The position numbers and the translations under genes were made by a program. DNA of 54,086 nucleotides, from positions 78,927-133,012 of the forward strand of contig LJSV01000010.1 of NCBI GenBank assembly GCA_001314715.1, written 5' to 3'. The stretch's first letter is position 1, and each line of letters opens with the position of its first letter. Positions 25 through 54,086 of the stretch are shown one piece after another. Under the pieces are notes generated by a model. The model did no database searches. It was not told the origin of the DNA and saw nothing but the letters and a program-made list of their open reading frames with translations. This stretch comes from Rhodobacteraceae bacterium HLUCCA12 (GTDB taxonomy: Bacteria; Pseudomonadota; Alphaproteobacteria; Rhodobacterales; Rhodobacteraceae).

Positions 25-1092
25 CTACCGAACGATCCGGTTCACATGCCCCATCTTGCGTCCCGGTCGCACCTCGTCCTTGCCGTAAAGGTGGATCTGC
101 ACATCGGCCTCGGCGGCAAGCTCAGGAATGCGGGCAATATCGTCGCCGATCAGGTTTTCCATGATCACATCGGCGTGGCGCCCGCCATTGCCCAGGGGCC
201 AGCCCGCGACTGCGCGGATATGCTGTTCGAACTGATCCACGGCACAGCCCGCCTGGGTCCAGTGGCCCGAATTATGCACCCTTGGCGCAATCTCGTTGAC
301 GATCAGCCCGCCGGGTGTGATGAACAATTCGACCCCCATCACGCCGACATAGTCCAGCGCGTTCAAGATCTTACCGGCCAGAAGCACCGCATCCATCCGT
401 TGCGCTTGGCTCAGCGTGGCCGGCACCGTGGTCCGGCGCAGAATGCCCGCCTCGTGCAGGTTCTCACCCGGATCGAAACAGGCCACCTCGCCCGAAAGGC
501 CGCGCGCGGCGATGACCGAGACCTCACGCTCGAACGTGACAAAACCCTCCAGAACGGCGGGGGCGCCCTGCATCGCGTCCAGTGCCGCTGCGGCCTGATC
601 GGGCGCGTTGATCCGGGCCTGGCCCTTGCCATCATAGCCCAGCCGCGCGGTCTTCAGAATCGCGGGCATTCCGATCTGCTGCACGGCCGCATCCAGCGAC
701 ATCGCGTCGGTCACGGGCGCAAACGGGGCCACCGACAGACCCAGGCCCGACAGAAAGCGCTTTTCGTTCAGCCGATCTTGCGACACCGTCAGCGCCCGGC
801 GGCCCGGCCGCACCGGGCGCAGCCCTTCCAGCAGATCCAGCGCCGTGGCCGGAATGTTCTCGAATTCATAGGTCACGACATCCACCGACTGTGCGAAGGC
901 TCGCAAAGCCGCCGCGTCGCCCCAGGGCGCAGTTGTCACGCAGTGCACCACATCGGCGGCAGGCGGTTCCGGGGCAGGTTCGTAGACATGGGTGCGAAAC
1001 CCAAGACGGCTGGCCGCGACCGACAGCATGCGCCCCAGTTGTCCGCCCCCCAGAATGCCGATGACCGCGCCGGGCTCCAGCCGCTCACTCAT
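25..1092 (-). CDS. purK: N5-carboxyaminoimidazole ribonucleotide synthase
   Basis: PurK uses ATP and bicarbonate to turn aminoimidazole ribonucleotide into N5-CAIR, a step of de novo purine synthesis in the cytosol. The 355-residue product has the ATP-grasp layout: GGGQLGRM at 15-22, EFENI at 76-80 and the family signature [13 protein letters not shown] at 266-278. The ATG at 1092 overlaps the purE stop by 8 bp, so the two genes are transcribed together with purE first; longer upstream extensions of the frame lie inside purE and are not needed. A 6-bp inverted repeat (TTCGGT/ACCGAA, 15-32) covers the stop codon, but it has no U-tract. Length and motifs are normal for the family. Confidence 0.95.
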
Positions 1093-3985: not shown

Positions 3986-6310
3986 GTGACCCAACCCGAC
4001 CTCGCCGCAGGCATTCCGCGCCGGATCGCCGCGGAAATCCGCGCAACACCCGCGCAGGTGACAGCCGCCATTTCATTGCTGGACGGGGGCGCCACCGTCC
4101 CGTTCGTGGCGCGCTACCGCAAGGAGGCGACAGGCGGGCTGGACGATAGCCAGTTGCGCACCCTGTCCGAGAGGCTGGCCTATTTGCGCGAACTCGAAGC
4201 GCGGCGCGCGACCATCGTCGATTCGATCCGCGAGCAAGGCAAGCTTGACGACGATCTGGCAAGGGCGATTGCAGCCGCCGACACCAAGGCAACGCTTGAA
4301 GACCTGTATCTGCCCTTCAAGCCCAAACGTCGCACCAAGGCGATGATCGCGCGCGAAAACGGGCTTGAACCGCTTGCGGACGCGATCCTGACCGATCGCG
4401 CCGCCGATCCGAAGGTGCTGGCCGCGGGTTTCATATCGGATGCGGTTCCCGACCCGAAGGGCGCCTTGGACGGCGCGCGCGAGATTATCGCCGAACGCCT
4501 GTCCGAGAATGCCGCGCTCAAGGCACGGCTGCGCGCACGGCTGCACGATCACGGGTTCCTGGCATCATCGGTCCTTCCCGGCAAGGAAGCCCAGGGCACC
4601 AAATTCGCCGATTATCATGCGCATTCGGAAAAGCTGGCCACCGTTCCCAGCCACCGCGCGCTTGCCATGATGCGCGGGCGCAACGAGGGGTTCCTGACCC
4701 TCGATCTGGTGCTCGATGCCGATGCCGCGCCCGGTGACAGCCCCGCCGAGCGCATGGTAAAGGACGTGCTGGGCGCGCATGGCCATGGGGCCGGCGATCA
4801 GTGGCTGGCGCAGGTCGCGGGCTGGGTCTGGCGCGTCAAGCTGAAGCTGTCGTTGAGCATAGAATTGATGACCGACTTGCGCGAACGCGCCGAGGCCGAG
4901 GCGATTCGCGTTTTCGCCCGCAACCTGAAGGATCTGTTGCTGGCGGCACCGGCGGGCGCGCGGGCGACGATGGGGCTGGATCCGGGTGTGCGCACCGGGA
5001 TCAAGGTCGCGGTGGTCGATGCAACGGGCAAGCTGGTCGAGACCGCCACCGTCTATCCGTTCGAGCCGCGCCGCGATGTCGAGGGCGCATTGTCGACGCT
5101 CGCATCCCTGGTGCGCCGTCACGGTGTCGAACTGATCGCGATCGGCAATGGCACATACAGCCGCGAAACCGACGCCCTCGCGGCTGAACTGTTGAACCGT
5201 CTGCCGGCGCCGCGTCCGACCAGGGTTGTCGTGTCCGAGGCGGGCGCGTCTGTCTATTCGGCCTCGGAACTGGCCGCGCGCGAATTTCCGGGGCTCGACG
5301 TGTCGCTGCGCGGCGCCGTGTCCATCGCCCGGCGCCTTCAGGATCCCCTGGCCGAACTGGTCAAGATCGAGCCCAGGTCGATCGGCGTCGGCCAGTATCA
5401 GCATGACGTGAACCAAAGCCTTCTGGGCAAATCGCTTGATGCCGTGGTCGAGGATGCGGTGAATGCGGTCGGCGTGGAACTGAACACTGCATCGGCGCCG
5501 TTGCTGGCGCGGGTGTCGGGCCTTGGCCCGGTGCTGGCCGACGGAATTGTCGCCCACCGCGATGCCAATGGCCCCTTCCCTGAGCGCAAGGCCCTGCTGA
5601 AAGTGCCGCGGCTGGGGCCCAAGGCCTTTGAACAGGCCGCCGGCTTTCTGCGCATACGCGGCGGGTCCGAGCCGCTGGATGCCAGCGCCGTCCACCCCGA
5701 GGCCTATGGCCTGGCTCGCAGGATCGTTGCGGCGACCGGGCGCGATGTGACCGCACTGATGACCGACCCCGCACCACTCCGTCAGCTTGAACCGTCGGAT
5801 TTCATGGATGACAGTTTCGGCCTGCCGACCGTGCGCGATATTCTTGCCGAACTGGAAAAGCCCGGCCGCGACCCGCGCCCGGCATTCAGGACCGCAACCT
5901 TTGCCGAGGGCGTGAACGACATCCGCGATCTGAAGCCGGGGATGTCGCTTGAAGGCACGGTCACCAATGTCGCGGCCTTCGGTGCCTTCGTCGATATCGG
6001 CGTGCACCAGGACGGATTGGTCCATGTCAGCCAGCTTGCCGATCGGTTCGTGAAAGACCCGCATGACGTGGTCAAGGCAGGCGATGTGGTCCGCGTCCGC
6101 GTGCTGGAGGTGGATATCGGGCGCAAGCGCATCGGCCTGAGCATGCGCAAGGATAACGCCGGCGCGCCCGCCGAACGCGCGGCCAAAGGTCGCGACAAGC
6201 CGACAGCCGATGCACAAAGCCGCGCCAAGCCCCGGCAAGATACGCAAAAGGAAACGGGCGCACCGGGCGGGCTTGGCCAGGCTTTGCTGGACGCGATGAA
6301 GAAGCGCTGA
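3986..6310 (+). CDS. tex: Transcription accessory protein Tex
   Basis: Tex is a conserved RNA-binding protein tied to transcript quality and stress tolerance. The 774-residue product shows the standard order: N-terminal Tex helical region, YqgF/RuvC-like domain beginning at [17 protein letters not shown] (about 330), a helix-hairpin-helix region ([10 protein letters not shown]...[13 protein letters not shown], about 513-550), and a C-terminal S1 RNA-binding domain ([19 protein letters not shown], about 655-675), followed by a charged tail. The GTG at 3986 is preferred over the ATGs at 3890 and 3932 because it follows AAAGG and gives the usual family N-terminus and length. It is divergent from DUF1643. 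Confidence 0.95.
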
Positions 6311-11504: not shown

Positions 11505-12638
11505 GTGCTCGATTACACGCATGACGGGCTTTTGGTCGCCGCCTCGCTGGCGGTGGCGCTGATGGCGGGCTTCACGGGGCTGTCGCTGACACGCGGCGCG
11601 TCGGCATTGCCGACGGGTCAGCGCAAGCTGGTGGTATCGATGTCCGCCATAGCCTTGGGAGGCGGCATCTGGTCGATGCACTTCGTCGCCATGCTGGGGC
11701 TGCAATTGCCGATCCAGTTCTATTACGATTCACTGATCACGCTGATCTCGGCGCTGGTGGCGATCCTGATCGCCGGACTTGCGCTTTTGGTCGTGCATTT
11801 CGGGCGCCGCACGCGAAACCGGGTCGTTCTGGCCGGGCTGATCGTGGGCCTGGGTATCCCGGTGATGCATTTCATCGGCATGTCGGGGATGCAGATCTGC
11901 CGCCCTGTCTACAGTTTCGGCGGCATCGCGATCGCGCTGGCGGTTTCGGCCACGCTCAGCGTCGGGGCGTTTCTGATTGCCTATGACAAGCGTGCGCCGC
12001 GCAATATCGTTCTTGGCACTTTGGGCTTTGGTCTGGCGGTCTTTGCGGTGCATTTCACCGCGATGGCCGGAACCGGCTTCGTGGTGCAAGATGACCCTGC
12101 CGGCGCCGGGCCGTTGATCAGCAACGAGGTGCTGGCCTTTGGCGTGACATTGTCGGTCTTCGTTCTGTCCGGGGCGTTCCTGCTGACCGGCGTCACCTTC
12201 GGACCGCAGCCACAGGCCGCCGGGGTGCCGGCGGCGGGGCCGCTGGCAGCGGAAACGCCATTGGTCCAGCTTTCCGAACCGGCACCGCCACGCCCATCGC
12301 CGCTGCGCACGACCATTCCCTATGAAAAGGACGGGCGCACCCAGTTCGTCGCCGCCGATGCCGTCGCGGCAATCCGGGCCGAGGGGCATTACACATTGTT
12401 GTATGTCGGGCGCGACAAGTTCTTTTGCCCCTGGTCCATCACCGAGGCCGAATCGCGCGTGCCCAACGGCGAGTTCGTGCGGACCCATCGCAGCTACCTG
12501 GTCAACCGCCAGCATGTCAGCGGTTTTGAACGCAAGAAGGATACCGGCATCTGTTTCTTTGACGCGGTTCCGGCCTTGGGCAAGGTCCCCGTGAGCCGGG
12601 CACGCCTGGCCGATGTGCGCGAGGTTCTGGGCCTATAA
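11505..12638 (+). CDS. MHYT-LytTR membrane-bound transcriptional regulator (CoxC/CoxH type)
   Basis: A 377-residue regulator with an integral-membrane MHYT sensor and a cytoplasmic LytTR DNA-binding domain. The sensor has about seven hydrophobic helices and the three MHYT signature motifs, SMHFVAM (His59), VMHFIGM (His122) and AVHFTAM (His183), thought to coordinate a metal or haem-like site that binds a diatomic gas. The LytTR domain spans about 274-377 and ends with the typical FVRTHRSYLVN recognition segment (324-334). GTG 11505 is preferred: GGAGGG lies 8 bp upstream. The same architecture is known in CoxC and CoxH of the Oligotropha carbon-monoxide gene cluster. Here the gene stands alone, 38 kb from the cox operon of this window. 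Confidence 0.88.
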   Translation: MLDYTHDGLLVAASLAVALMAGFTGLSLTRGASALPTGQRKLVVSMSAIALGGGIWSMHFVAMLGLQLPIQFYYDSLITLISALVAILIAGLALLVVHFGRRTRNRVVLAGLIVGLGIPVMHFIGMSGMQICRPVYSFGGIAIALAVSATLSVGAFLIAYDKRAPRNIVLGTLGFGLAVFAVHFTAMAGTGFVVQDDPAGAGPLISNEVLAFGVTLSVFVLSGAFLLTGVTFGPQPQAAGVPAAGPLAAETPLVQLSEPAPPRPSPLRTTIPYEKDGRTQFVAADAVAAIRAEGHYTLLYVGRDKFFCPWSITEAESRVPNGEFVRTHRSYLVNRQHVSGFERKKDTGICFFDAVPALGKVPVSRARLADVREVLGL

Positions 12639-12654: not shown

Positions 12655-13683
12655 TCAAAGATCGTGCGCAAGGTCCGGGTAAGCCAGGCGCAAGGCGTCG
12701 TCGAATGCGTCCGCCGACAGGTCCAGCGGCTTACCCAGCCATCGTGCCAGGGCGGGTGCGGGATCGAATTCATACGCACGGACCAGCCCGGCGGCTTGCA
12801 TCGCGGCCGGGTCGGCCACCGATTTGAGCCGGTCATGCAGTTCGCGCAAGGCCCGCGCGTCGTTGCCATGATCGCGTGCAAACGCCACCTGCGCGCGGCG
12901 GTGTTCGGCCAGAAAGCGCGACCAGTGCGCCGGGTCATGCGCGCCGTAGCGGCGCAACTTCAGCATCCAGTGCAATGGGGTCAGGCCGTCGAAATGCAGC
13001 ATCACGGCATTGCGGGCAGGACGCGATGGCGGCAAGGCGCCATCCACGCGCGGGGCGTGGGGTCGCAGCACGGCCCTCAGACCCGTGCGCGTGCAGGCCT
13101 TGCCCGCCGCATGGCCCGACACGCCTCGGGCGATGAAGGGTTCCTGGTTCGCCAGATCCGGCGGCACCGGGTCGCGCCGCGGCAAGGGTCCTCGAAAGAC
13201 CCCTTCGAACAGGGCGCGCACCGGCCCGCGGACATAGGCGCGCTCACGCGTCGGCAGCGCCAGATAGGCCCCGTGCCCGGCCGCATCGGCAAGTTCGTCG
13301 CCAAAGCGCTGACCCGCTGGCATCCACAGGAATTCGTCGGCATCCAGATTCAGCATCCAGTCGGCGCGGCTGCGGCGATAGGCGTGCGTCGCGACAAGGG
13401 TCTGCCGGCGTGTTTGCAGCACTGGCCGGCCACCGTTCAGCCCCTGCCAGAAACGATCGTCGCATTCCGTCACCCGGACACCCGGCAAGGCCTGCACCAT
13501 CGCCGTGATGGTCCGGGCAGACGGTGACTGGGGGGCATCGAGATACAGGTGCACCTCTTGCGCGCCTTGCTCAAGATGCCAGCACAGATTTGCCAGAACC
13601 AGAACCGATGGCTCATCCGCCAGCAGGACGACATCCCACACGGGATGCCGGTCGTCGTCGTCACGGGCCCCTTGCTGCGTCAT
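12655..13683 (-). CDS. Glycosyltransferase family 2-like protein
   Basis: A 342-residue cytosolic protein of the GT2-like group often seen in Rhodobacteraceae. The early part (VVLLADEPSVLVLANLCWHL, about 18-37) resembles the nucleotide-binding start of these enzymes, and NLDADEFLWM at about 112-121 is the DxD-type metal and sugar-nucleotide motif. Acceptor and sugar are unknown; it may act on cell-surface polysaccharide. It converges with the MHYT-LytTR gene and its start abuts the control region of the suc operon. No convincing Shine-Dalgarno was seen, so the start is less sure than the family. Confidence 0.8.
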   Translation of the reverse strand: MTQQGARDDDDRHPVWDVVLLADEPSVLVLANLCWHLEQGAQEVHLYLDAPQSPSARTITAMVQALPGVRVTECDDRFWQGLNGGRPVLQTRRQTLVATHAYRRSRADWMLNLDADEFLWMPAGQRFGDELADAAGHGAYLALPTRERAYVRGPVRALFEGVFRGPLPRRDPVPPDLANQEPFIARGVSGHAAGKACTRTGLRAVLRPHAPRVDGALPPSRPARNAVMLHFDGLTPLHWMLKLRRYGAHDPAHWSRFLAEHRRAQVAFARDHGNDARALRELHDRLKSVADPAAMQAAGLVRAYEFDPAPALARWLGKPLDLSADAFDDALRLAYPDLAHDL

Positions 13684-42300: not shown

Positions 42301-43313
42301 CCGCGCAGCGCGTCAACTGGCGCGGCGACCGAAACGGCTCACCGATCACGGTGGCGCGCCCGGCCGAGGGCACGGGCTATCCGGCTGTTGCCGAACTGGT
42401 GCAGAACGCCTGGGTCGTTGTCTGGCAGGCGCAGGGGCGTGGCGGAAGACCCGACATCTTCATGCGCCGCTTCCGCGTCAATGGCCGCGCGATGGATCGC
42501 CAGCCCCGCACGGTCAACGACTCGGGCCGGGGCCAGCAGACAGTGCCGCGGGTCGCAGCACTTGAAGACGGCGGCTATGTCGTGGTCTGGCAATCCAGCC
42601 GTGCCGACGGCAACGGCGAAGGGATCGTCATGCGCATTTTCGAAGCCTCCGGCAATCCGCGCACGGGCGATATCGTTGTCAACGAGACGACCCAGGGCGA
42701 CCAGGTGGGTCCGGATGTGACGGTGCAGGAAGGTGGCGACATCGTCGTGACCTGGGCCGGCCCGACCAACCGGGGCAATGGCGCGTTCTCGCGGCGGGTC
42801 GATGCGCAAGGCAACATGGTCGACGGCGAAACCGTGGTCGGGCAGGCCGGCCGCGCCAGCGTGCCGCATGTGCGCACCGCGGCGCTGGACAACGGCAACT
42901 TTGCCGTGGCCTTCGAGGCCAGCGACCGGCTGCGCCGCGATGGCCCCTACAGCGTCGTCGTGCAGCGCAATCGCCGGCTCGGCGGCCCCTGGGGCGATCC
43001 TGAGCGGATGGAACGCCTGCGCTCGGGCGACCAGTTGCTGCCAGCCATCAGCGGACTGCGTCGCATGAGTCTGGTCACGGTCTGGAATGCGCCCGACGGC
43101 AACCAGGGCGGCATCTGGGGGCAGACGATCGGGCGTGACGGCGACCCCATCGGCGCGCCCGAGATGATCAACACCACCACCCAGGGCGATCAGCGCCAAC
43201 CCGCGGTCGGAACGGTCGGGGACACGCGCCACTTCTTCGTGGTCTGGACAACGCCCGACTCGGGCACGTCGGACAACACGAATATCGCCTTGCGCCGGTT
43301 CATGGGCCCCTGA
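39393..43313 (+). CDS. Large secreted S8 subtilisin-like serine peptidase with Ig-like and propeller-like domains
   Basis: A 1306-residue exported protease. Signal peptide 1-30 (cleavage after SFA), a prodomain to about 165, and an S8 catalytic domain (about 170-495) with Asp196 (VAVLDTGG), His255 (GHGTHVAG), oxyanion Asn375 (AAGNNG) and Ser441 (SGTSMATPH): the triad is complete. Then an Ig-like domain (about 506-595), a PPC-like beta domain (about 600-726), a Gly-rich hinge, two more Ig-like repeats (about 735-826 and 828-925), and a C-terminal set of about 60-residue repeats of the VVVWQ type (about 930-1306), probably a beta-propeller. No RTX or autotransporter domain is seen. Monocistronic; GGAG lies 8 bp before ATG. 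Confidence 0.92.
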   Translation: MRRPFTSRLRGALGVAVLALATGLSTPSFAQDLLSSTAMARMPDASAITSALEESENGRVSVIVEFEAPDLAGLAAQSASSTAETAAEADAALTAAVHSAQNSILGRVMDQDDAEGLNAALSDRSIGLVRMNFTPMFAISADASMLESLAADPDVVRIHHNGADEPYLRSSLPVIGMPDAYDAGATGEDWRVAVLDTGGRRSHEFLNRQIVSAACYSNSGGAGGMTSLCPGGVPSSINIDSANDCDRGTIFGCGHGTHVAGTAAGFNLNPNGVNPDFGVARDARIISINVFTQFPRSQCGSIPSQYTGGCVLAYTSDQISGLERVYALRNSMDIAAVNMSLGGGVHFSHCDTDSRKSIIDQLRSAGIATVIAAGNNGATYIGAPACISSSVSVASSTNSDIRSSFSNWNSLLDVVAPGSDINASIVNGTSNNSYALLSGTSMATPHVTGAFAALRSAVPSASVSDIEEALEATGTPISSGSVSLPRINVDLALARLRGGGGLNPTTSAVTGPATSTEGTSVTFTATVSATAGGTPSGTVTFRNNGTAMGTRTLSSGTASFSTASLPVGTNQISVVYSGSATHAASTSPNFAHTVTGTNGAHPVNDDFADRSPMSGPGRYTGSNVGATNETGEPTHAGRTSADNSVWWRYTPSSSGEVTIDTDGSDFDTVLAVYTGSAVNALSEVASNDDAIGLQSRVVFNATAGTSYAIAVAGYGGADGDIVLNVVGGGGGGGPTPTTTSLSGPSSSVFGQSVTFNTTVSADSGIPAGSVTFRRGTTTLGSASLSAGATDLTTSSLPVGSHQITAEYNGSATHAGSTSSPRSHTVSQADVTVWLWSDRHDDTYRPGERAELTARVNVDSPGGGTPTGTVRFTANGNTLGSASLSGATATLSTELPLGTNTVVAEYQGTTGYRAGDSSPLTVIVSAGLGDEVIVNQRTALIQQRPAISPLRRSAVVVFEDQHVNNGPFGVTAQRVNWRGDRNGSPITVARPAEGTGYPAVAELVQNAWVVVWQAQGRGGRPDIFMRRFRVNGRAMDRQPRTVNDSGRGQQTVPRVAALEDGGYVVVWQSSRADGNGEGIVMRIFEASGNPRTGDIVVNETTQGDQVGPDVTVQEGGDIVVTWAGPTNRGNGAFSRRVDAQGNMVDGETVVGQAGRASVPHVRTAALDNGNFAVAFEASDRLRRDGPYSVVVQRNRRLGGPWGDPERMERLRSGDQLLPAISGLRRMSLVTVWNAPDGNQGGIWGQTIGRDGDPIGAPEMINTTTQGDQRQPAVGTVGDTRHFFVVWTTPDSGTSDNTNIALRRFMGP

Positions 43314-43858: not shown

Positions 43859-43966
43859 TCAGCAGCAGGGAAATTTGATCCGCGCGACAAGTTCCGCCTG
43901 TTCCGGCGTCAGCCGCGGCCAGATCCGGGCGAAAAGCCGCGAGACTACGCGAATGTGTATCGTCAT
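43859..43966 (-). CDS. 35-residue ORF between coxF and coxG
   Basis: A small frame that begins with an ATG overlapping the coxF stop (ATGA, 43966-43963) and ends with TGA at 43861-43859, immediately before the coxG Shine-Dalgarno. The product starts MTIHIRVVSRLFARIW, has a PRLTPEQAELVARIKF stretch and ends in FPCC. About three quarters of its codons end in G or C, as in the neighbours. It carries several Arg residues and looks like two short helices with a terminal Cys pair. It may be a real subunit or accessory peptide, or a coupling leader for coxG. No homologue is recalled. Confidence 0.5.
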   Translation of the reverse strand: MTIHIRVVSRLFARIWPRLTPEQAELVARIKFPCC

Positions 43967-44790
43967 TCGCGCCGACCCGCGCGGCGCTCGGCGACGATCT
44001 GGGCAAGGATCGACAAGGCGATCTCGTCCGGGGTGATGGCGTGGATATGCAGCCCGGCCGGCGCGCGAACGCGCTCCAGCGCCGCGGGGTCGATCCTGCC
44101 GTTGCGTAACTTGGCGGCCAGCGCCGCGAACTTTCGGCGGCTGCCGACAAAGGCGATGAAATCCGCGCCACTTGCCAGTGCGGCGCGCAACGCGGCCTCG
44201 TCACCCTTGCCCTGTGTGGCGACAACAACAAACCGCTGCGCGCCGGGTGCGGTATCCAGCGCGAAACTGTCGCTGAGGGTTTCGACTTCGGGCATGGGTT
44301 CCGGGGCGGGGCCGGGGATGCAAAGCATGCGGTGAAAATCGAACCGCCCGCCCAGATCGGCCAGTGCCAGCGCGACGGGCCCACCACCGCAGATCACCAA
44401 GCGCGGCAATGGCAGGACCGGCTCGATGAAAATGTCCATCGACCCACGGGATGGGCATCCATTGCGCGCAAAACGGATGCCGTCGCGTTCTTCGCCGGGG
44501 CGCACGCCCTCGGCATCCAGCAAATCCTCGGGGCGGAGCGAGACGAATTGCGGCGCGCCGCTATTCATTGCCTCAAGCGCCGCCTTGCTGACAGCCGCGC
44601 GCGCGCAGCCGCCGCCAACCCAGCCCTCGGCAAGCGTTCCATCGGCCAGGATCAGCGCCTTTGCGCCGGGCTTGGCCGAGGTCGCATCGACCGTCCGAAC
44701 GATCGTGGCGACCGCAAAGGTCCGGCCGTCATGGCGCAAGCGTTCGATTTCCTGCGACAAACGAGTCTGACTTTTCATGGACAGGGTCAT
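43963..44790 (-). CDS. coxF: XdhC/CoxI-family molybdenum cofactor maturation protein
   Basis: A 275-residue protein of the XdhC-CoxI family, which binds molybdenum cofactor and assists its sulfuration and insertion into xanthine-oxidase-type enzymes. N-terminal XdhC_CoxI domain with AEGWVGGGCARAAV (about 54-67) and NGCPSRGSMDIFIEP (about 110-124), then a Rossmann domain with LVICGGGPVALALADLGG (about 131-148). Overlaps coxE by 4 bp. The symbol follows the Oligotropha order D-E-F-G; coxI is a related paralogue. Confidence 0.88.
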   Translation of the reverse strand: MTLSMKSQTRLSQEIERLRHDGRTFAVATIVRTVDATSAKPGAKALILADGTLAEGWVGGGCARAAVSKAALEAMNSGAPQFVSLRPEDLLDAEGVRPGEERDGIRFARNGCPSRGSMDIFIEPVLPLPRLVICGGGPVALALADLGGRFDFHRMLCIPGPAPEPMPEVETLSDSFALDTAPGAQRFVVVATQGKGDEAALRAALASGADFIAFVGSRRKFAALAAKLRNGRIDPAALERVRAPAGLHIHAITPDEIALSILAQIVAERRAGRRE

Positions 44791-46016
44791 AGGCGGGCAA
44801 GCTCCGGTTCCAGTGCAGCGAAATCGGCCAGCGTTGCGGCGGGGGCGAACAGGTCCAGCGAAGGCAGGGCCGCGGCCATGCCACGGGCAACGGGCGAATA
44901 GTCTTTCCAGCCCTTCAACGGGTTCAGCCAGATCACCCGGCAGCCGCGTTTGCGCAACCTTGCCAGCGCCGCGCCCAACTGCGCGGGATCGCCGGTGTCA
45001 TAGCCATCCGACAGAATCAGAACCACCGTGCGGCCATTGACGAGGTGGCGCGCCGGGCCGCGCGCAAAGCGATCAAGATTGGCCCCGATCATCGAGCCGC
45101 CCCCGAACCCCTCGGCCAGCAGGGTCAGTCGGTTCAGAACGCGCAATGGATCGTCATCGCGCAGGGCCTCGGATATCCGCACAAGTCGGGTGTGAAAGAG
45201 CCAGGCATCGCAATCGGGGTCGGCCCGCATCAGCCCGGCGACAAACGCCAGATAGGGCCGCGCATAGGCCGTCATGGACCCCGATACATCGCACAACGTC
45301 ACGATTCGCACCGGGCGATCGGGCCGGCGTCGGCGCACCAGCCGGAACGGTTCGCCGCCGGTTGCGAGCGATGCGCGCATCGTGCGCCGCAAGTCGATGG
45401 ACTGCCCCCGCCTTGCCGCCCGACGCCTGCGCGATCGCCGGTCCCTGATCGCTCGGCCCAGCGCCGCAGCGATCGCCTCGGCCTCGCGTATGTCTTGCGG
45501 TGCGACCAACTTGCGCAAATCCTTGCGCATCAGGTTCGCGGCCTCGCTTGCGACGAGCTTGCCGGTCCCGTCGGCATTGGCCTCGCCCTTCGCGTCACCC
45601 TCATCCGGGCTGTCGGTCTGGCCGCTGCCGGTGCTGTCGTCACCATGCGCGCGACGGCTATTCTGGCCCTGCGTGCGTTTTGTCGTGGATGCACTGGGGC
45701 GCACCCGCCCCGCATTCAGCCAATACGCGTCGAAGAGCGCGTCGAACCGCCGCGCCTCGTCGCTGGAGCTGGCAAGAACGGTCTTCAGCGCCAGGCGCAC
45801 CGTGTCCGGCGCGTAATCGGCCACGCAAGCAAGCGCGGTCAGCGCGACCTCGGCCTCGGCCACGCCGAGACGAAATCCATTCTCGCGCAGATGGCCGACA
45901 AAGCCCGACAGTCGCGCCGCCGGCCCCGGATCGCGGGCGGCAAACCGGGTGGCGCGCGATGGGCGCGCAAGCGTCAGGTCACGCGCCTTGCGGGGGGCAA
46001 CGGTGGCCTGCATCAC
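44787..46016 (-). CDS. coxE: VWA-domain protein CoxE
   Basis: A 409-residue von Willebrand A protein. The MIDAS metal motif is DVSGSM in RIVTLCDVSGSMTAYARPYL. Together with the MoxR-type ATPase CoxD it is needed for post-translational building of the Cu-S-Mo active site of CO dehydrogenase (known from Oligotropha). A Gly/Ser/Asp-rich middle (about 105-150) is low in complexity. Overlaps coxD by 4 bp. Confidence 0.9.
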   Translation of the reverse strand: MMQATVAPRKARDLTLARPSRATRFAARDPGPAARLSGFVGHLRENGFRLGVAEAEVALTALACVADYAPDTVRLALKTVLASSSDEARRFDALFDAYWLNAGRVRPSASTTKRTQGQNSRRAHGDDSTGSGQTDSPDEGDAKGEANADGTGKLVASEAANLMRKDLRKLVAPQDIREAEAIAAALGRAIRDRRSRRRRAARRGQSIDLRRTMRASLATGGEPFRLVRRRRPDRPVRIVTLCDVSGSMTAYARPYLAFVAGLMRADPDCDAWLFHTRLVRISEALRDDDPLRVLNRLTLLAEGFGGGSMIGANLDRFARGPARHLVNGRTVVLILSDGYDTGDPAQLGAALARLRKRGCRVIWLNPLKGWKDYSPVARGMAAALPSLDLFAPAATLADFAALEPELARL

Positions 46017-46891
46017 GCGGCCTTTCCGGCCAGCCGCGCCGCAACCTCAAGCGGGATTGCCGCGCGATCAGCCTGTGTCTTCAGCAACGTGGCCAGTGCC
46101 GCAACCAGCGCGGCGGGATCGTCGGTCAGATCGTTCACGCCCAGCCCTGCCAGCGCCGCCGCGAAATCCAGCATTTCGGCCACGCCCGGCTTCTTTTCCA
46201 GATCCTCGCCGCGCAAGGCCTGCACGAACGCGACGATCTGCGCGCCCAGGGCTGCCTCGACCTGCGGGCAGCGCGCCCGCAAGATTGCCAGCTCGGTCTC
46301 GCGATCGGGGTATTCGACCCAGGCATAGAGGCATCGCCGGCGCAGCGCGTCCGACAGATCGCGCGTGCCGTTCGCCGTCAGGATGACATGCGGGCGGCTG
46401 GTGGCGCGGATCGTGCCCAGTTCAGGCACGGTGATCTGGAAGTCGGAAAGCACCTCAAGCAGATAGGCCTCGAATTCCTCGTCGGCACGGTCGATCTCGT
46501 CGATCAGCAGGACCGGCGGGGTGGCGCGCCGGATCGCGGCCAGAAGCGGGCGTTCCAGCAGGAAATCCTCGGAAAAAAGGCGTTGTTCGGCCGCGCGCGC
46601 GCTTTCTCCGTCCTCCGCGGCGGCACGGATCGCCAAAAGCTGGCGCTGGTAGTTCCATTCATAGATCGCCTGCGCCGAATCGAGCCCTTCATAGCATTGC
46701 AGGCGGATCAATTCGGTCTCAAGCATGGAGGACAGGGCGCGCGCGACCTCGGTCTTGCCGACGCCCGCCGCCCCCTCCAACAGCAGCGGGCGATCCAGCG
46801 ACAACGCCAGATGCAGCGCCATCGCCAAGTCGGGGGCGGCGACATAGCCCTGCGCCGCCAGTCGATCCTGAAGGGTTTGCCAGGTATCCAT
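46013..46891 (-). CDS. coxD: MoxR-type AAA+ ATPase CoxD
   Basis: A 292-residue AAA+ chaperone that works with CoxE in maturing the CO dehydrogenase Cu-S-Mo centre. Walker A GAAGVGKT (40-47), Walker B VLLIDEIDRA (127-136), sensor region LTANGTRDLSDALRRRC. ATG 46891 is the family start, but it has no adjacent Shine-Dalgarno. AAGGAGGG stands 34 nt upstream, right after the coxL stop, with a GC hairpin between. Confidence 0.92.
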   Translation of the reverse strand: MDTWQTLQDRLAAQGYVAAPDLAMALHLALSLDRPLLLEGAAGVGKTEVARALSSMLETELIRLQCYEGLDSAQAIYEWNYQRQLLAIRAAAEDGESARAAEQRLFSEDFLLERPLLAAIRRATPPVLLIDEIDRADEEFEAYLLEVLSDFQITVPELGTIRATSRPHVILTANGTRDLSDALRRRCLYAWVEYPDRETELAILRARCPQVEAALGAQIVAFVQALRGEDLEKKPGVAEMLDFAAALAGLGVNDLTDDPAALVAALATLLKTQADRAAIPLEVAARLAGKAA

Positions 46892-46900
46892 GCGGTGATG

Positions 46901-46931
46901 CGGGGCGCGCCCAAGGGGCGCCCCGCCCTCC
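46901..46931 (-). promoter_or_regulatory. Hairpin in the coxL-coxD junction
   Basis: On the minus strand an AAGGAGGG right after the coxL TAA is followed by GGGGCGC...GCGCCCC arms (within 46902-46925), ending about 10 nt before the coxD ATG. The structure separates a good ribosome-binding site from the start codon and could act as a weak terminator, mRNA-end stabiliser or translational switch between structural and maturation genes. Confidence 0.4.
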
Positions 46932-49349
46932 TTATCCATGCAGGCCAAGCTGGTTGGCAGTCTTCCAGATGCGCCAGTGGTCGTGCGGCATGTGCGACTG
47001 GCGCAACCCGAACGCGCGGAAGGCATCATGCACCGCGTTCGAAAACGCAGGCACCCCGCCCACATTCGGGCTTTCCCCCACACCCTTGGCCCCGATCGGG
47101 TGATGCGGGCTCGGGGTTTCGGTGAAATCGGTGGTATAATTCGGGGTCTCCCACGCCGTCGGCAGGAAGAAGTCCATCAGCGTCCCGGTCTTGACGTTGC
47201 CGATCTCGTCATAGGCAATCTCCTGGCCCATGGCGATTGCCAGCGCCTCGGTCAGGCCGCCGTGCACCTGCCCTTCGATAACCATCGGGTTGATCCGCGT
47301 GCCGCAATCGTCAAGCGCATAGAACTGGCGGATCTCATGCTCGCCGGTGTCCACGTCGATTTCCATCACGCAGACATAGGCCCCGAACGGATAGGTCATG
47401 TTCGGCGGATCGTAATAGCTGACGGCTTCAAGCCCCGGCTCGATACCCGGGATTGCCTGATTATAGGCGGCATAGGCGATGTCCTTCATGGTCTTGAAAC
47501 GCTCGGGCGCGCCCTTGACCGCGAAGCGATCCACATCCCATTCCAGATCGCCTTCGTGCACCTCCAGCAACCACGCGGCAATCATCTGCGCCTTTGCGCG
47601 GATCTTGCGCCCGGCCATGGCCGTGGCCGCCCCGGCAACCGGGGTCGAACGCGAGCCATAGGTGCCCAGGCCATAGGGCGCAGTATCGGTATCGCCCTCT
47701 TCGATCGTGATGCTGTCGGCGGGCAGGCCGATTTCGGATGCCAGGATCTGCGCGAATGTCGTCGCATGCCCCTGCCCCTGGCTGATCGTTCCCAGCCGGG
47801 CAATCGCGCTGCCGGTCGGATGAATGCGGATTTCGCAGCTGTCGAACATCCCCATACCCAGGATGTCGCAATTCTTGACCGGCCCGGCCCCGACGATCTC
47901 GGTGAAATGGGTCAACCCGATCCCCAGAAGCTTGCGGGTTTCACCGCGCTTGAAGGCTCCGACGCGCTCGGCCTGTTCGCGGCGCAACCCCTCATAATCG
48001 ACCGCTTTCAGCGCCTTGTCCCAAGCTGTGTGGTAATCGCCCGAATCGTATTCCCAGCCCAGCGCCGAATGATAGGGAAACTGATCGGCGCGGATGAAGT
48101 TCTTGCGCCTGAGTTCGGCGGCGTCCATGCCAAGCTCGATCGCCAGAACCTCGATCATCCGTTCGATGAAATAGGCCGCCTCGGTCACACGGAAGGAACA
48201 ACGATAGGCCACACCGCCCGGAGCCTTGTTGGTATAGACCCCGTCCACACCGACCCAGGCCACGGGTATGTCATAGCTGCCGGTGCAGATATGAAAGAAC
48301 CCGGCCGGAAATCTGGTTGGATCGGCACAGGCATCAAAGGCACCGTGATCGGCGGTGGTATGGCACCACAGACCGGTGATCTTGCCGTCTTTCGTCGCGG
48401 CGATCTTGCCCTTCATCCAGTAATCGCGGGCAAAGGCGGTGGACATGAGGTTTTCCATCCGGTCCTCGACCCATTTTACCGGCTTCCCGGTCACGATCGA
48501 GGCCACGATGGAACAGACGTAGCCAGGATAAACCCCCACCTTGTTGCCGAACCCGCCGCCGATATCGGGCGAGATCACGCGAATGTTGTGCTCCTCGATC
48601 CCCGACAGCAGGCTGGCGACGGTGCGCACCACATGTGGCGCCTGGAACGTGCCCCAGACGGTCAGCTTGCCATTGACCTTGTCCATCGACGCCACGGCGC
48701 CGCAGGTTTCCAGCGGGCACGGATGGGTGCGGTGGTAATAGACCATCTCTTCGGCGACGACATCGGCGCTGTCGATCACCTGTTCGGTGGCGGTCTTGTC
48801 ACCCTCTTCCCATAAAAAGATATGGTTGTGATGGCGTCGCGGGCCGTGTGCGCCCTCGGTCTGCCCGGCCAGATCCTCGCGCAGGACAACGTCGCTTTCC
48901 AAGGCGGCGAAGGGGTCGGTCAGGACCGGAAGCTCTTCATATTCGACCTCGACCAGTTCGACCGCATCGGCGGCGATGTATCGGTCCTCGGCGACGACAA
49001 AGGCAACCTCCTGCCCCTGGAACAGAACCTTGCCATCGGCCAGCACCATCTGCTTGTCCCCGGCCAGCGTCGGCATCCAATGCAGGTTCAGCGGCGCCAG
49101 ATCCTCGGCGGTCAGCACGGCGATCACACCGGGCAGCGCCAGCGCGGCCTCCTTGTTTACCGACTTGACGCGCGCATGGGCATAGGGCGAGCGCACGAAA
49201 TCGCCGTGCAGCATTCCTGGCAATTTCACATCATCGACGTAGTTGCCCTTACCTTGGGTAAAACGCGCATCCTCGACGCGCTTGCGCGAGCTGCCCAGAC
49301 CCTTGAGGTTCGCAATGCGGTCTTCACGGCTTGGCGACAGATCGTTCAT
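46932..49349 (-). CDS. coxL: Aerobic carbon-monoxide dehydrogenase large subunit, form I
   Basis: Catalytic subunit (805 residues) of the Mo-Cu CO dehydrogenase that oxidises CO to CO2 and passes electrons to the quinone pool. It has the form I active-site loop AYRCSFR (381-387), with Cys384 expected to hold copper, Gln236 (TFQAPH) and the catalytic Glu759 (KGVGE). These are the residues that separate true CO dehydrogenases from form II enzymes (AYRGAGR). [15 protein letters not shown] (about 261-275) binds the molybdopterin. It overlaps coxS by 4 bp. Length is near the 809 of Oligotropha CoxL. Confidence 0.97.
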
Positions 49350-49837
49350 TGCGCGGCCTCCTTCGCGGCATTGATCTCACTTGCGGCGGCAAGGATCGAC
49401 TTGACGATGTTCTGATACCCGGTGCAGCGGCACAGGTTCCCCGCCATGCCAAAGCGAACCTCCTCTTCGGTCGGGTTCGGGTTTTCCTCAAGCAGGCGGT
49501 GCGCGCGGGTGATCATGCCCGGCGTACAGAAGCCGCATTGCAGCCCGTGATGCTCACGGAAGGCCTGTTGCAGGACATGCAGCGCGTCGGGCGTGCCCAG
49601 CCCTTCGATGGTGGTGATCTCGGCACCATTGGCCTGCGCGGCAAAGACGGTGCAGGACTTGACCGACTTGCCGTTCATCTCGACCGTGCAGGCGCCGCAA
49701 TGGCTGGTTTCGCACCCGATATGCGGGCCGGTCAGGTTCAGACGCTCGCGCAGGACGTGGATAAGCAATTCACGCGGCTCGGCCAGAAGTTCCTCGGCCT
49801 TGCCGTTGACGGTCAGTTTAACGTGGATCTTTGACAT
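49346..49837 (-). CDS. coxS: CO dehydrogenase small (2x 2Fe-2S) subunit
   Basis: Electron-transfer subunit, 163 residues, with two 2Fe-2S clusters: plant-ferredoxin type at Cys42, Cys47, Cys50, Cys62, and the alpha-helical cluster at Cys101, Cys104, Cys136, Cys138 ([15 protein letters not shown]). ATG 49837 fits the family; upstream in-frame extension overlaps coxM. It lies 10 bp after coxM. Confidence 0.97.
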
Positions 49838-49847
49838 GGTTCCCCCC

Positions 49848-50702
49848 TCAGGCGCGCGACCAGGCGCGCTGAATGGCGCGCGTGATGATGATGCCGGCGA
49901 CATGGCGCTTGAACTCGACCGGGCCGCGATTGTCCTCGGTCGGGTCGATGTCGGCCAGCGCAGCCGCGCTCGCAGCTTTCACCGCCTCGGCGCCGCAGTC
50001 GGTGCCGGTCAACGCATCCGCCGCGGCCTGCGACCAGATCGGCGTGTCGCTCAGGTTGGTCATGGCGATGGACGCCCAGGCGACCTTGCCGCCCTCCTTG
50101 CCCACCAAGACGGCCGCCGCCGCCGTGGCGTAGTCGCCGATCTTGCGCTTTTGCTTTTCATAGGCATAGCCGCCGGGCCGCGCGGTGAACTGCACCGCCG
50201 TCAGGATCTCGTCGTCCTCACGGTCGGTCATATAGGCCGCCTCGTAGAACGCGCGTGCCTCGACCTCGCGCTCGCCATCCGGCCCGGACAGCAGGAAGGT
50301 CGCATCCAGCGCCTGCATCAACCCCGGCATGTCATTCCCCGGATCGCCATTGGCGATATTGCCGCCGATGGTGCCCATCGCGCGCACCTGCGGGTCGGCG
50401 ATCTGCAACGCCGCCTCGCGCAGGATCGGCGCGGACTGGGCCAGCCCGGCATGCGCGATCAACTCTTGCTGGGTCACCATCGCGCCGATGGTGACAGCAT
50501 CGCCATCAATGGTGACGCTTTTCAGCGCGCCGATGTCCTGCAGATCGACCAGATGTTCGATGGCCGCCATGCGCAGTTTCATCATCGGGATCAGGCTGTG
50601 CCCGCCTGCAAGAACGCGCGCCTCATCCCCAAGGCGCTGCAAAAGCCCGACCGCGGATTCAATATCCGCCGGGCGATGATACTCGAAAGCCGCTGGTATC
50701 AC
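49848..50702 (-). CDS. coxM: CO dehydrogenase medium (FAD-binding) subunit
   Basis: FAD subunit of CO dehydrogenase, 284 residues. FAD motifs are [13 protein letters not shown] (32-44) and [14 protein letters not shown] (111-124). First gene of coxM-S-L-D-E-F-(ORF)-G. GTG 50702 follows AGGGAGG at close spacing and gives the usual N-terminus [10 protein letters not shown]; the upstream ATG frame would add 34 unrelated residues. Three direct repeats lie upstream at 50800-50852. Confidence 0.96.
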
Positions 50703-50799
50703 GTTTTCCTCCCTCGCTGGGCCGAGTGGCCTTGCTGGGCGAGGGATAGGATGCATCTCTGGCCGGGCCGAATCGACGCACACAGAATTCGACGGCTTT

Positions 50800-50852
50800 T
50801 GCACGAACGGCGAACTGTCTGCACGAACGGCGTATGCAGGTGCAGAACCGGC
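50800..50852 (-). promoter_or_regulatory. Three direct repeats upstream of coxM, likely regulator-binding array
   Basis: On the minus strand GCCGTTCGTGCA occurs at 50811-50800 and 50831-50820, and a related GCCGGTTCTGCA at 50852-50841, at 20- and 21-bp steps. The GCCGTTCGT core matches 8/9 of the LytTR half-site consensus, and ACAGTTCGC between the first two matches 9/9. The exact copies also contain TTnnnG as in RcoM sites. The array ends 98 bp before the coxM start codon, where an activator is expected. Confidence 0.55.
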
Positions 50853-50879
50853 GCGACAGCGCGACGCCGGCAGATCAGG

Positions 50880-51470
50880 TCACAGAAAGATCGGTCGGCG
50901 ATCGCCCGCGGCAAACCGGCGCAGTACGGCCGGATACAGGCGATGCTCCTGCACCAGAACCCGCGCGGCAAGGGTTTGCGGGGTATCGTTTGCCAGGATC
51001 GGCACTCGCGCCTGACCCAGGATCGGCCCGTCATCCAGAACCGGCGTGACCTCGTGCACCGTGCATCCGGCCTCGGCATCGCCCGCCTCCAGCGCGCGCG
51101 CATGCGTATTGAGCCCGGGATACAGCGGCAGCAGCGACGGGTGAATGTTCATCATCCGCCCGGCGAACCGCTGCACGAACCCTGTCGTCAAGACGCGCAT
51201 GAACCCGGCCAGCGCGATGATATCGGGCCGTGCATCCTCAAGCACAGGCAACAGCGCCGCCTCGAACGCGGCCCGGTCCTGGCCAAACGGGCGATGGTCG
51301 ATCACGGCGGTCGCTATGCCCATCGCCGCCGCGCGCTCAAGCCCGCGTGCCTGCGGCTGGTTCGACAGCACCAGACAGGGCCGGGCCGGGTGATCACCGG
51401 TCATGCTTTGCGCCAGCGCCACCATGTTCGATCCGCCACCGGAAATCAGGATGGCGACCCGTTTTCTCAC
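50880..51470 (-). CDS. purN: Phosphoribosylglycinamide formyltransferase
   Basis: PurN formylates glycinamide ribonucleotide with 10-formyl-tetrahydrofolate, step 3 of purine synthesis. The 196-residue protein shows ISGGGSNM (9-16), LAGFMRVL (87-94), [20 protein letters not shown] (108-127, with catalytic Asn108-His110) and [15 protein letters not shown] (with catalytic Asp). It overlaps purM by 4 bp. It ends 177 bp from the cox start, and that gap holds the cox control region. Confidence 0.96.
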
Positions 51471-52638: not shown

Positions 52639-52714
52639 GGGCCTGTAGCTCAATGGTCAGAGCAGGGCGCTCATAACGCCTTGGTTGGGGGTTCGAGTCC
52701 CTCCGGGCCTACCA
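52639..52714 (+). tRNA. tRNA with CAT anticodon (Ile2 or elongator Met)
   Basis: A 76-nt cloverleaf with encoded CCA. Acceptor stem GGGCCTG/CGGGCCT (G1-U72 and U6-G67 wobbles), anticodon arm GGGCG-CTCATAA-CGCCT, T-arm GGGGG-TTCGAGT-CCCTC. The lack of a C1-A72 mismatch and of the three G-C initiator pairs excludes tRNA-fMet. The AGCAGG...TTGGT features look more like E. coli ileX (CAT modified to lysidine) than metT. Most annotation tools would label it tRNA-Met. The gene is the apparent integration target for the downstream recombinase. Confidence 0.9.
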
Positions 52715-52806: not shown

Positions 52807-54086
52807 ATGGCGCGAACACCGAAGTATCTCCACTACAAGCGCGGGCGGTTCTTCGCGAGAATCGTGGTCCCGAGAGAGCTGCAAGCACTGGTCGGGAAGA
52901 GGGAACTGACAAAGGCGCTAGGTGCCGATCGTCGCAGCGCTGAAAAACATCTGCCCGGCGCAGTCGCCATGATGATGCACGAACTTGCGCTCGCTGAGCG
53001 CAAGCTAAACGCGAGTAGCGCGGTTCCTGCCGAAGCGCGCTTTCCGATGGCTCCGGCTGCGATCGCTGCCAGCCACTATCTTCAACGCCTCACGCTTGAC
53101 GACCAAATTCGGAGCGATCCAAGCTATGGACGGTATGCGACGATCGGATTCGACGATCAGTATGTTCAGCGCCTCCGGGACGGAATGGCAGGCAGGCTAG
53201 CCAATGAACAGCTCGCTGAACTGGTCGGACCGAGGATCGAGCGCTTCCGTTACCTCGGTAATGTGACGGCTGAACCGGGCAGCGACGAGTGGCGGCAGAT
53301 CGCGCGCGCGCTTTGTGTCGCTGAGTATGAAGCACTCTCGCGTGTGGTCGAGCGCGATGAAGGTGAGTTTGACGGCAAGCCTTCGCATCCGCTGATCATC
53401 AACGCGCTACCAGCTCAGGACGCACCCGAGCCTGTCAGCCTGACAAAGCTCTGGACCGACTACCTCGCTTCCCGGATGCAAGCCGGATTCATCAAAGACG
53501 GCGGAAAGCGACAGGAACCCGTTATCAAGAGCTTGAGGGCTTTTCTCAAGCACAACGACGCACAACGCGTGACGAAGAAAGACCTCTTGTCTTGGCGGGA
53601 CCATCTGCTGAATGTGGCCAAGCTCAGCGCGAAAACGATCAACGACATATACCTTTCGACCATACGCTCACTGTTTGCATGGGCACATGAAAACGAACGT
53701 TTAACCGAGAACGTCGCAGCGACGGTCAGGCAACCGAAGCCTCGCAAGGTGCAGTCGCGGGAACGTGGTTACACCGATGCTGAGGCTCTGGCAGTCCTGC
53801 GCGCCTGTCAATCGCATGTGCCAAAGGCGAATCAAGTCGGCTTTGTGCGTGAGACCACGCACATGACGGCTGCGAAACGATGGGCACCGCTGCTATGCGC
53901 GTTCTCTGGCGCGCGTATCTCCGAGATCACTCAACTTCGGAAAGAGGACATCAGTAAGCAGGGTGAACACTGGATCATGCGCATTACCCCTGAGGTGCCC
54001 CCCGAAAACTGGACAATGACGCAAGCTCGGATTTGCTGTCTGCTGATCTTCACCACGAAGGAGATCGAAGATGTCGAAACGAAAGC
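52807..54086 (+). CDS. Tyrosine recombinase/integrase (partial, apparently interrupted)
   Basis: A frame open from ATG 52807 to the window edge. The N-terminus TPKYLHYKRGRFFARIVVP resembles the DUF6538 domain of phage-type integrases; a SAM-like core-binding domain (about 205-310, with LTKLWTDYLASRM and INDIYLSTIRSLFAWA) follows, then the catalytic domain with box I Arg in FSGARISEITQLRKEDI (about 370-386). After MRITPE (codon 395, position 53990) similarity stops and the DNA looks like an IS end. The HxxR and Tyr residues are not seen. Codons are more AT-rich than in purM. The tRNA-adjacent, co-oriented position indicates a genomic island. Confidence 0.85.
   Translation, partial: MARTPKYLHYKRGRFFARIVVPRELQALVGKRELTKALGADRRSAEKHLPGAVAMMMHELALAERKLNASSAVPAEARFPMAPAAIAASHYLQRLTLDDQIRSDPSYGRYATIGFDDQYVQRLRDGMAGRLANEQLAELVGPRIERFRYLGNVTAEPGSDEWRQIARALCVAEYEALSRVVERDEGEFDGKPSHPLIINALPAQDAPEPVSLTKLWTDYLASRMQAGFIKDGGKRQEPVIKSLRAFLKHNDAQRVTKKDLLSWRDHLLNVAKLSAKTINDIYLSTIRSLFAWAHENERLTENVAATVRQPKPRKVQSRERGYTDAEALAVLRACQSHVPKANQVGFVRETTHMTAAKRWAPLLCAFSGARISEITQLRKEDISKQGEHWIMRITPEVPPENWTMTQARICCLLIFTTKEIEDVETK
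53991..54086 (+). mobile_element. Probable left end of an IS3-family insertion sequence
   Basis: The sequence from TGAGGTGCCCCCCGAAAACT (53991) onwards has the look of an IS3-family terminal repeat (TGAnnTGCCCCC...GGACA), and 80 bp later a transposase-like OrfA start appears behind AAGGAG. It interrupts the integrase frame. The right end and target duplication lie outside the window. Confidence 0.5.
54071..54086 (+). CDS. Start of a putative transposase OrfA (5' fragment)
   Basis: ATG 54071 begins MSKRK, a common start of IS3-type OrfA, with AAGGAG at 54058-54063. It is in a different frame from the integrase. Only five codons are in the window. Confidence 0.4.

Follow-up and report, generated by a model that had tools for sequence, protein, structure and literature searches.

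A conserved pair of phased direct repeats before the cox operon of a Rhodobacteraceae bacterium as the probable operator of a CoxC-like MHYT-LytTR regulator

The window considered here, the whole stretch of 54,086 nucleotides that was analysed from Rhodobacteraceae bacterium HLUCCA12, carries the genes for CO dehydrogenase on its minus strand and, just before them, a short array of direct repeats on one face of the DNA helix. The array raises the question of which regulator it may serve and how that regulator might act on the operon.

The repeat array and the cox operon

The operon begins with coxM, the gene for the medium subunit (49848-50702, minus strand), whose longest open reading frame (ORF) matches Pfam FAD_binding_5 and CO_deh_flav_C. 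Its GTG start lies at 50702-50700 and aligns with the coxM start codons of relatives, which are mostly ATGATACC or ATGATTCC; a ribosome-binding site, AGGGAGG, was recognised by eye at 50708-50714 on the same strand. Five further genes follow on the minus strand. These are coxS for the 2Fe-2S subunit (49346-49837; Fer2 and Fer2_2; start placed by eye, the longest ORF beginning at 49903), coxL for the molybdenum subunit (46932-49349), a coxD-like AAA ATPase gene (46013-47083, ORF limits, named by analogy), coxE for a VWA domain protein (44787-46016, VWA_CoxE) and a coxF/XdhC-like maturation gene (43963-44790; XdhC_CoxI and XdhC_C; named by analogy). The product of coxL contains AYRCSFR, which we take to be the form I signature.

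The upstream neighbour is purN (50880-51470, minus strand, Formyl_trans_N), which occupies the place held by coxC in most relatives. A terminator-like hairpin at the purN end (50889-50903, minus strand; 0.3 expected by chance) could separate purN from the cox promoter. Farther out, a tRNA-Met gene (52639-52714, plus strand) precedes an ORF (52807-54084, plus strand) that runs off the contig end, has DUF6538 below cut-off as its only Pfam match and reads by eye like a tyrosine recombinase; this tRNA-Met/recombinase-like region next to purM may be the border of an integrated element.

Between the purN stop (50880) and the coxM GTG, two identical 12-bp units, GCCGTTCGTGCA, stand on the minus strand at 50831-50820 and 50811-50800, and a variant, GCCGGTTCTGCA, at 50852-50841. 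The step from the variant, here called U (50841-50852), to the first exact copy is 21 bp and that from the first exact copy to the second is 20 bp. The array thereby spans the region 98-150 bp upstream of the coxM GTG; these coordinates and distances, given in a preliminary description made from the letters alone, were correct when the strings were relocated. The identity of the two exact copies extends to 13 nt, CGCCGTTCGTGCA at 50832-50820 (site A) and at 50812-50800 (site B), and their consensus sequences in relatives are CGCANTTCGTGC and CGCATTTCGTGCA, respectively. A possible degenerate site, C (TCGAATTCTGTGT, 50780-50792, minus strand), lies 20 bp after B and is weak in the window. A search for inverted repeats in 50690-50890 found none.

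How unusual such an array would be by chance was estimated with Markov-1 sequences of window length (n = 60), which contained 0.017 exact 12-mer pairs 18-23 bp apart per sequence and in 0 of 60 cases a third copy at three or fewer mismatches beside such a pair. The same scan of the window returned one repeat of this kind, the array before coxM. Taken one by one, copies of the 12-mer show no enrichment in the window (13 matches at two or fewer mismatches vs 11.7 expected); the distinctive feature is the phased pair. The preliminary description had also read the three repeats as LytTR half-sites, a 9/9 match between two 8/9 matches to the pattern quoted in its text. Both perfect copies do score 8/9, but the third repeat falls below that value, and the 9/9 match, ACAGTTCGC at 50818-50810, turned out to consist of six spacer letters and the first three of site B. 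The spacer beneath it is poorly conserved in relatives, and the 9/9 match was ruled out as a repeat, being mostly spacer and not conserved.

Conservation of the core pair in relatives

Absence of conservation upstream of coxM was one of the results that the preliminary description had named as fatal to its own proposal, and the proposal withstood this test. Among 394 genomes from the family, coxM was found in 101, and 99 of the upstream regions could be evaluated, those of L097 and L101 being too short. A core pair, defined as two copies of CGCATTTCGTGCA with at most four mismatches each and a permitted spacing of 18-23 bp, was found in 93 of these 99, and the spacing of the best pair was 20 bp in 50 loci and 21 bp in 43, with no other value among them. 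The same search returned a pair in 1 of 97 control stretches farther upstream and a mean of 0.12 (maximum 2) in shuffled sequences. The downstream copy starts 98-146 bp before coxM across the 93 loci. This conservation argues against a chance origin of the repeats. The six loci that lack the pair are L034, L048, L090, L098, L100 and L102, the first two of which keep one good site.

A second set, the best 80 loci of at least 571 relatives in titled genomes, which are partly the same genomes as those of the family set, gave the core pair in 78 of 80 and a CoxC-like match within 900 bp upstream of coxM in 76 of 80. It takes in bacteria outside the Rhodobacterales, such as Jiella, Zhengella, Oricola and Anderseniella. 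In the profile of the relatives, CGCA-N-TTCGTGC is strongly conserved in both A and B and the spacer is variable. A block like CTGCACCTGCATACG was seen to varying degree immediately 5' of site A in the window and in L003, L004, L016, L020, L026, L036, L058 and L141.

A strict two-site pattern has one match in the window's own genome, the array before coxM, and no second strict pair was found there. Across the 394 genomes it has 69 matches, one per genome, compared with 4 for a reversed control pattern. Sixty-one of the 69 lie within 300 bp of coxM, one lies behind the coxC of G344, and the others lie elsewhere in seven genomes (G131, G133, G152, G188, G282, G346 and contig C33 of G083). The matches in G133, G152, G346 and G083 are nearly one string, which looks like coding sequence.

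The weaker copies do not share the standing of A and B. The preliminary description had treated U as an equal third repeat; this could not be maintained, as U differs from A and B at 3 of 12 positions, does not register as a site with the profile built from relatives and has its register, CTGC[ACG] with T second, in 7 of the 93 loci including the window (four exact TTNNNGC). An exact TTNNNGC at A-21 occurs in 6 of 93 loci and is the commonest upstream offset for that string, but an exact TTNNNG at A-21 occurs in 6 of 93 vs 12 at another offset, and the profile test at A-21/-20 gave no U signal (4/93 vs 7 elsewhere). Since the profile penalises unseen letters harshly, only offset-to-offset comparisons were used with it. 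By such comparison a possible site C at B+20/21 passes in 31 of 93 loci at a lenient threshold (at most 3 outside offsets 19-21) and in 15 of 93 at a stricter one (at most 2 outside these offsets). The exact TTNNNG is not outstanding at this place (B+20, 11/93; B+21, 8/93; top elsewhere, 12), so site C depends solely on the profile test; the window's own C has no score on the profile. What can be stated firmly about the array is a core of two sites accompanied by weaker copies in phase with it.

The CoxC-like protein and published operators

The predicted binder of the array is the CoxC-like product of an ORF at 11505-12638 (plus strand), 38 kb from coxM, which has an N-terminal MHYT domain (Pfam, 7.6e-32) and a C-terminal LytTR domain (6.5e-16). 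Over aligned positions it is 33% identical (135/403) to CoxC of Afipia carboxidovorans. Its MHYT motifs read MHFV, MHFI and VHFT, with His retained and Phe in place of Tyr in all three; the Met of the third is lost, and the Val found there also occurs in the Aestuarium homologue (L135).

In 89 of the 101 coxM loci the end of a same-strand CoxC-like gene is found no more than 600 bp upstream of coxM. The window is one of the twelve outside this count. L028 (G253) and L093 (G276) also have a CoxC-like gene there, though with a truncated match that left them outside the 89; L072, L097 and L101 offer too little upstream sequence for the count; in the window, G007, G328 and G279 coxC is located 4 to 38 kb off, at another place in the genome; and a search of G083, G109 and G008 found no CoxC-like gene. 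By genome, the CoxC-like protein is present in 97 of 394, coxM in 101 and both in 96. The coxM genomes that gave no CoxC-like match are G008, G083, G102, G109 and G354 (5 of 101), and in G344, the sole genome with CoxC only, the operator is present and coxM is broken into pieces below cut-off. Of the evaluable loci, 96 belong to genomes with CoxC and 3 to genomes without; the core pair is found in 92 of the former and 1 of the latter, counts that are not independent because the relatives share ancestry and coxC and coxM are usually adjacent. Four genomes (G224, G336, G227 and G017) have a CoxC-like gene yet no core pair, the first two of them keeping one good site, and G109 has a weak core pair where CoxC gave no match. 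The CoxC-like frame of G017 (locus L102) is itself distant, at 31% identity, and has two internal stops; the region upstream of its coxM is without the core pair.

In all four genomes with a distant coxC (the window, G007, G328 and G279) a strict pair stands within 300 bp of coxM, and none was found near coxC in the examined stretches of G007, G328 and G279. Near the window's coxC the 12-mer gave only two matches, each with two mismatches, at 12828 and 12837 inside a glycosyltransferase ORF.

A published precedent is available in the CoxC of A. carboxidovorans strain OM5 (Durante-Rodriguez et al. 2024, PMC11347149). There, CoxC is reported to recognise at PcoxB a set of three direct repeats, TTNNNGCN, spaced by 18-21 bp, to need all three, and to be a repressor whose repression is relieved by CO, with copper required. 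The window array resembles that operator in having repeats of the TTNNNGCN type about 20-21 bp apart before a cox operon, with steps of 21 and 20 bp that fall within the CoxC-type spacing of two helical turns, and in having an MHYT-LytTR regulator of the cognate type in the genome. Sites A and B fit TTNNNGCN exactly; U, through GTTCTGCA, is one mismatch away and lacks one consensus base; and C does not fit. In our own reading of the Afipia record, CGCAGTTCATGCG is followed before coxB by CGCCGTTGGTGGA 21 bp on and by TTTGGGCA a further 20 bp on (the last by eye), and two of these units also start with CGC. Unlike the Afipia operator, the window array has two strong copies accompanied by one or two weak ones, precedes coxM rather than coxB and lies 38 kb from the regulator gene.

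The same source quotes two other arrangements. The canonical LytTR site is a pair of 9-bp direct repeats 10-13 bp apart, which the window array resembles in its direct repeats with a two-turn step and from which it differs in its longer and different conserved unit (CGCANTTCGTGC). RcoM1 of Paraburkholderia xenovorans recognises a triplet of TTCNNGCA at 12-13 bp intervals. As the preliminary description held the three-site phasing to be undescribed, its claim of novelty falls, the two-turn triple repeats of CoxC and the RcoM1 triplet both being in PMC11347149. The array is most likely a well-conserved further instance of the published CoxC-type site and not a new kind of element. A literature search of titles and abstract beginnings returned no description of such an operator in Rhodobacteraceae.

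Similar sets were noticed in other alphaproteobacterial records. The coxC-coxM gap of A. carboxidovorans pHCG3 (L140, 6228-6279) holds TTCGTGC at 6233, TTGGTGA at 6253 and CTGGTGC at 6273 in 20-bp steps, a second array-like set besides the one before coxB; the term PcoxM is absent from the main text of PMC11347149. Sinorhizobium meliloti AK83 pSINME01 (L136, 6243-6289) has three TTCGTGC, 21 and 19 bp apart, after an MHYT-LytTR gene, with no coxMSL annotated within the 11 kb examined. Two Hyphomicrobiales, Shinella sp. HZN7 (L139, 6221-6267; steps of 21 and 19 bp) and Bradyrhizobium betae (L137, 6250-6296; steps of 20 and 20 bp), have three phased TT[CG]GTGC / CTGGTGC sites between an MHYT-LytTR gene and coxM.

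Adjacency, co-occurrence, the position of the pair at coxM when coxC is distant and homology to CoxC all bear out the preliminary description where it assigns the array, as an operator at the cox operon, to a LytTR regulator, with the protein at 11505-12638 as likely binder. The repeats, the conservation of the core pair with its fixed step and the cross-genome association of protein and operator were obtained directly here. We conclude that the repeats are very probably the operator of this CoxC-like protein and would act as a CO-responsive switch of the cox operon. Binding of LytTR domains to such repeats, CO sensing by MHYT and the need for copper come from the Afipia work, and by analogy with it the protein would be expected to contact the DNA in the same way in this organism, with like cooperativity and a like response to CO. 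Some features sit less well with this conclusion: the window has two exact copies, and U in the register shared by 7 of 93 loci, vs the three repeats that Afipia CoxC is reported to need, and the protein has a modest 33% identity to that CoxC and the VHFT form of the third motif.

Whether the array is the sole target was approached with a looser pattern, TTCNNGCA-N12/13-TTCNNGCA, which has four matches in the window's own genome, the array included, and 0 with a reversed control. In none of the three other places do both sites carry the CGC prefix. One of them (L131) lies inside what was read as a lexA-like coding sequence; in the other two, L130 (C8:144208) and L133 (C21:28727), the TTCNNGCA pairs, with a step of 20 bp, precede an ATG (by eye) and are possibly further LytTR sites or chance. 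With three more genomic places, two of them before an ATG, the array may not be the only target.

Mode of control and alternative readings

We propose that A and B, two strong sites on one helix face, would be bound by LytTR domains, with the weaker phased U upstream and perhaps C downstream assisting them. The MHYT domain in the membrane would sense CO, and CO binding would alter the contact between LytTR and DNA such that the cox operon is turned on. As to the sign of control, repression relieved by CO is slightly favoured by homology, and a tentative promoter downstream of A and B would also fit activation. This promoter was placed by eye and with low confidence at 50748-50776 (minus strand; TCGATT at 50776-50771 and CATCCT at 50753-50748, 17 bp apart). 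A consensus promoter scan found no promoter before coxM, and no convincing -10 emerged from a two-block motif search. In the relatives a possible -10 element, [TC]ATGCA, clusters at B+58..60, counted from where site B starts, in at most 19 of 93 loci, and TANNNT occurs around B+62..65 (13 of 93). A -10-like cluster at B+58..65 implies a -35 near B+35..42, so this weak positional signal puts the promoter downstream of A and B, not overlapping them. With the promoter placed tentatively in this way, the window operator would differ from that of Afipia, which is reported to overlap a predicted -35.

That the array binds the CoxC-like protein as an activator, with the sign of RcoM, is a variant compatible with our main conclusion and a possibility that we consider somewhat less likely than not. 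It draws on the place of the -10-like elements, which leaves the -35 downstream of A and B, and on the discussion in PMC11347149, which describes RcoM1 and most LytTR regulators as activators that bind upstream of -35; against it, Afipia CoxC, the sole studied homologue, represses according to the same paper, and the promoter positions in the window are weak.

The array might also belong to the CoxC-like protein and answer chiefly to another gas or to redox state (O2, NO) rather than to CO. The same paper gives MHYT domains as proposed sensors of CO, O2 or NO, and the window protein has an altered third MHYT motif. We nonetheless consider this improbable given the near-perfect co-occurrence with CO dehydrogenase, the single strict site in the genome and the Afipia CoxC itself, which is described there as reacting to CO and not to O2 or CO2.

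Other binders within the genome fare worse than the CoxC-like protein. Two LytTR proteins were found in the genome, which is 99.9% complete. The second (277 aa, L104 7045-7878, contig C36) has no other Pfam match, MHYT and PAS included; its N-terminal half is hydrophobic by eye. Its LytTR domain would in principle suit the array, but it is encoded on a different contig from cox and it is the CoxC-like protein that fits the adjacency and co-occurrence, which makes the second protein a very improbable binder.

A heme PAS-LytTR protein of the RcoM type, named as a possible regulator in the preliminary description, is less probable still. The window array is like the RcoM1 operator, as quoted in PMC11347149, in that its unit TTCGTGCA fits TTCNNGCA, the intervals are 12 and 13 bp, and a LytTR domain and cox genes are involved; A and B fit TTCNNGCA exactly with a 12-bp interval, and U does not. 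However, RcoM is a heme-sensor LytTR activator and no PAS-LytTR protein was found among the two LytTR proteins of the genome, one of which is MHYT-LytTR and the other without a PAS or MHYT match, and RcoM was ruled out as the binder on this ground.

The alphaproteobacterial LexA box is GTTC-N7-GTTC. That the repeats are a LexA/SOS box, form an RNA element or arose by chance is highly improbable, since GTTC does recur several times in the array but GTTC-N7-GTTC has its only window match at 42393 and none at the array, 50550-51000 has no Rfam match at gathering scores and 50690-50890 no inverted repeat, and the core pair is conserved upstream of coxM in relatives.

If the operator is read in this way, a CO-sensing regulator-operator pair studied in one carboxydotroph would be extended to a large number of Rhodobacteraceae that carry CO dehydrogenase genes, and the spread of this little-studied sensor to so large a group gives the finding moderate interest. 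The motif CGCATTTCGTGCA, occurring twice 20-21 bp apart, would predict where a CoxC-like regulator acts. The separation of coxC from coxM in some genomes suggests that a long distance between the two genes need not cost a membrane-anchored regulator its target. A further-reaching view, possible and in our opinion rather doubtful, is that the CoxC-like protein of Rhodobacteraceae and some other alphaproteobacteria is a membrane-anchored activator, opposite in sign to Afipia CoxC, that acts on an array of two strong plus weak sites upstream of -35 and reaches its operator in trans even tens of kilobases from its gene. The array would offer a simple site for studying the control of CO oxidation in these bacteria.
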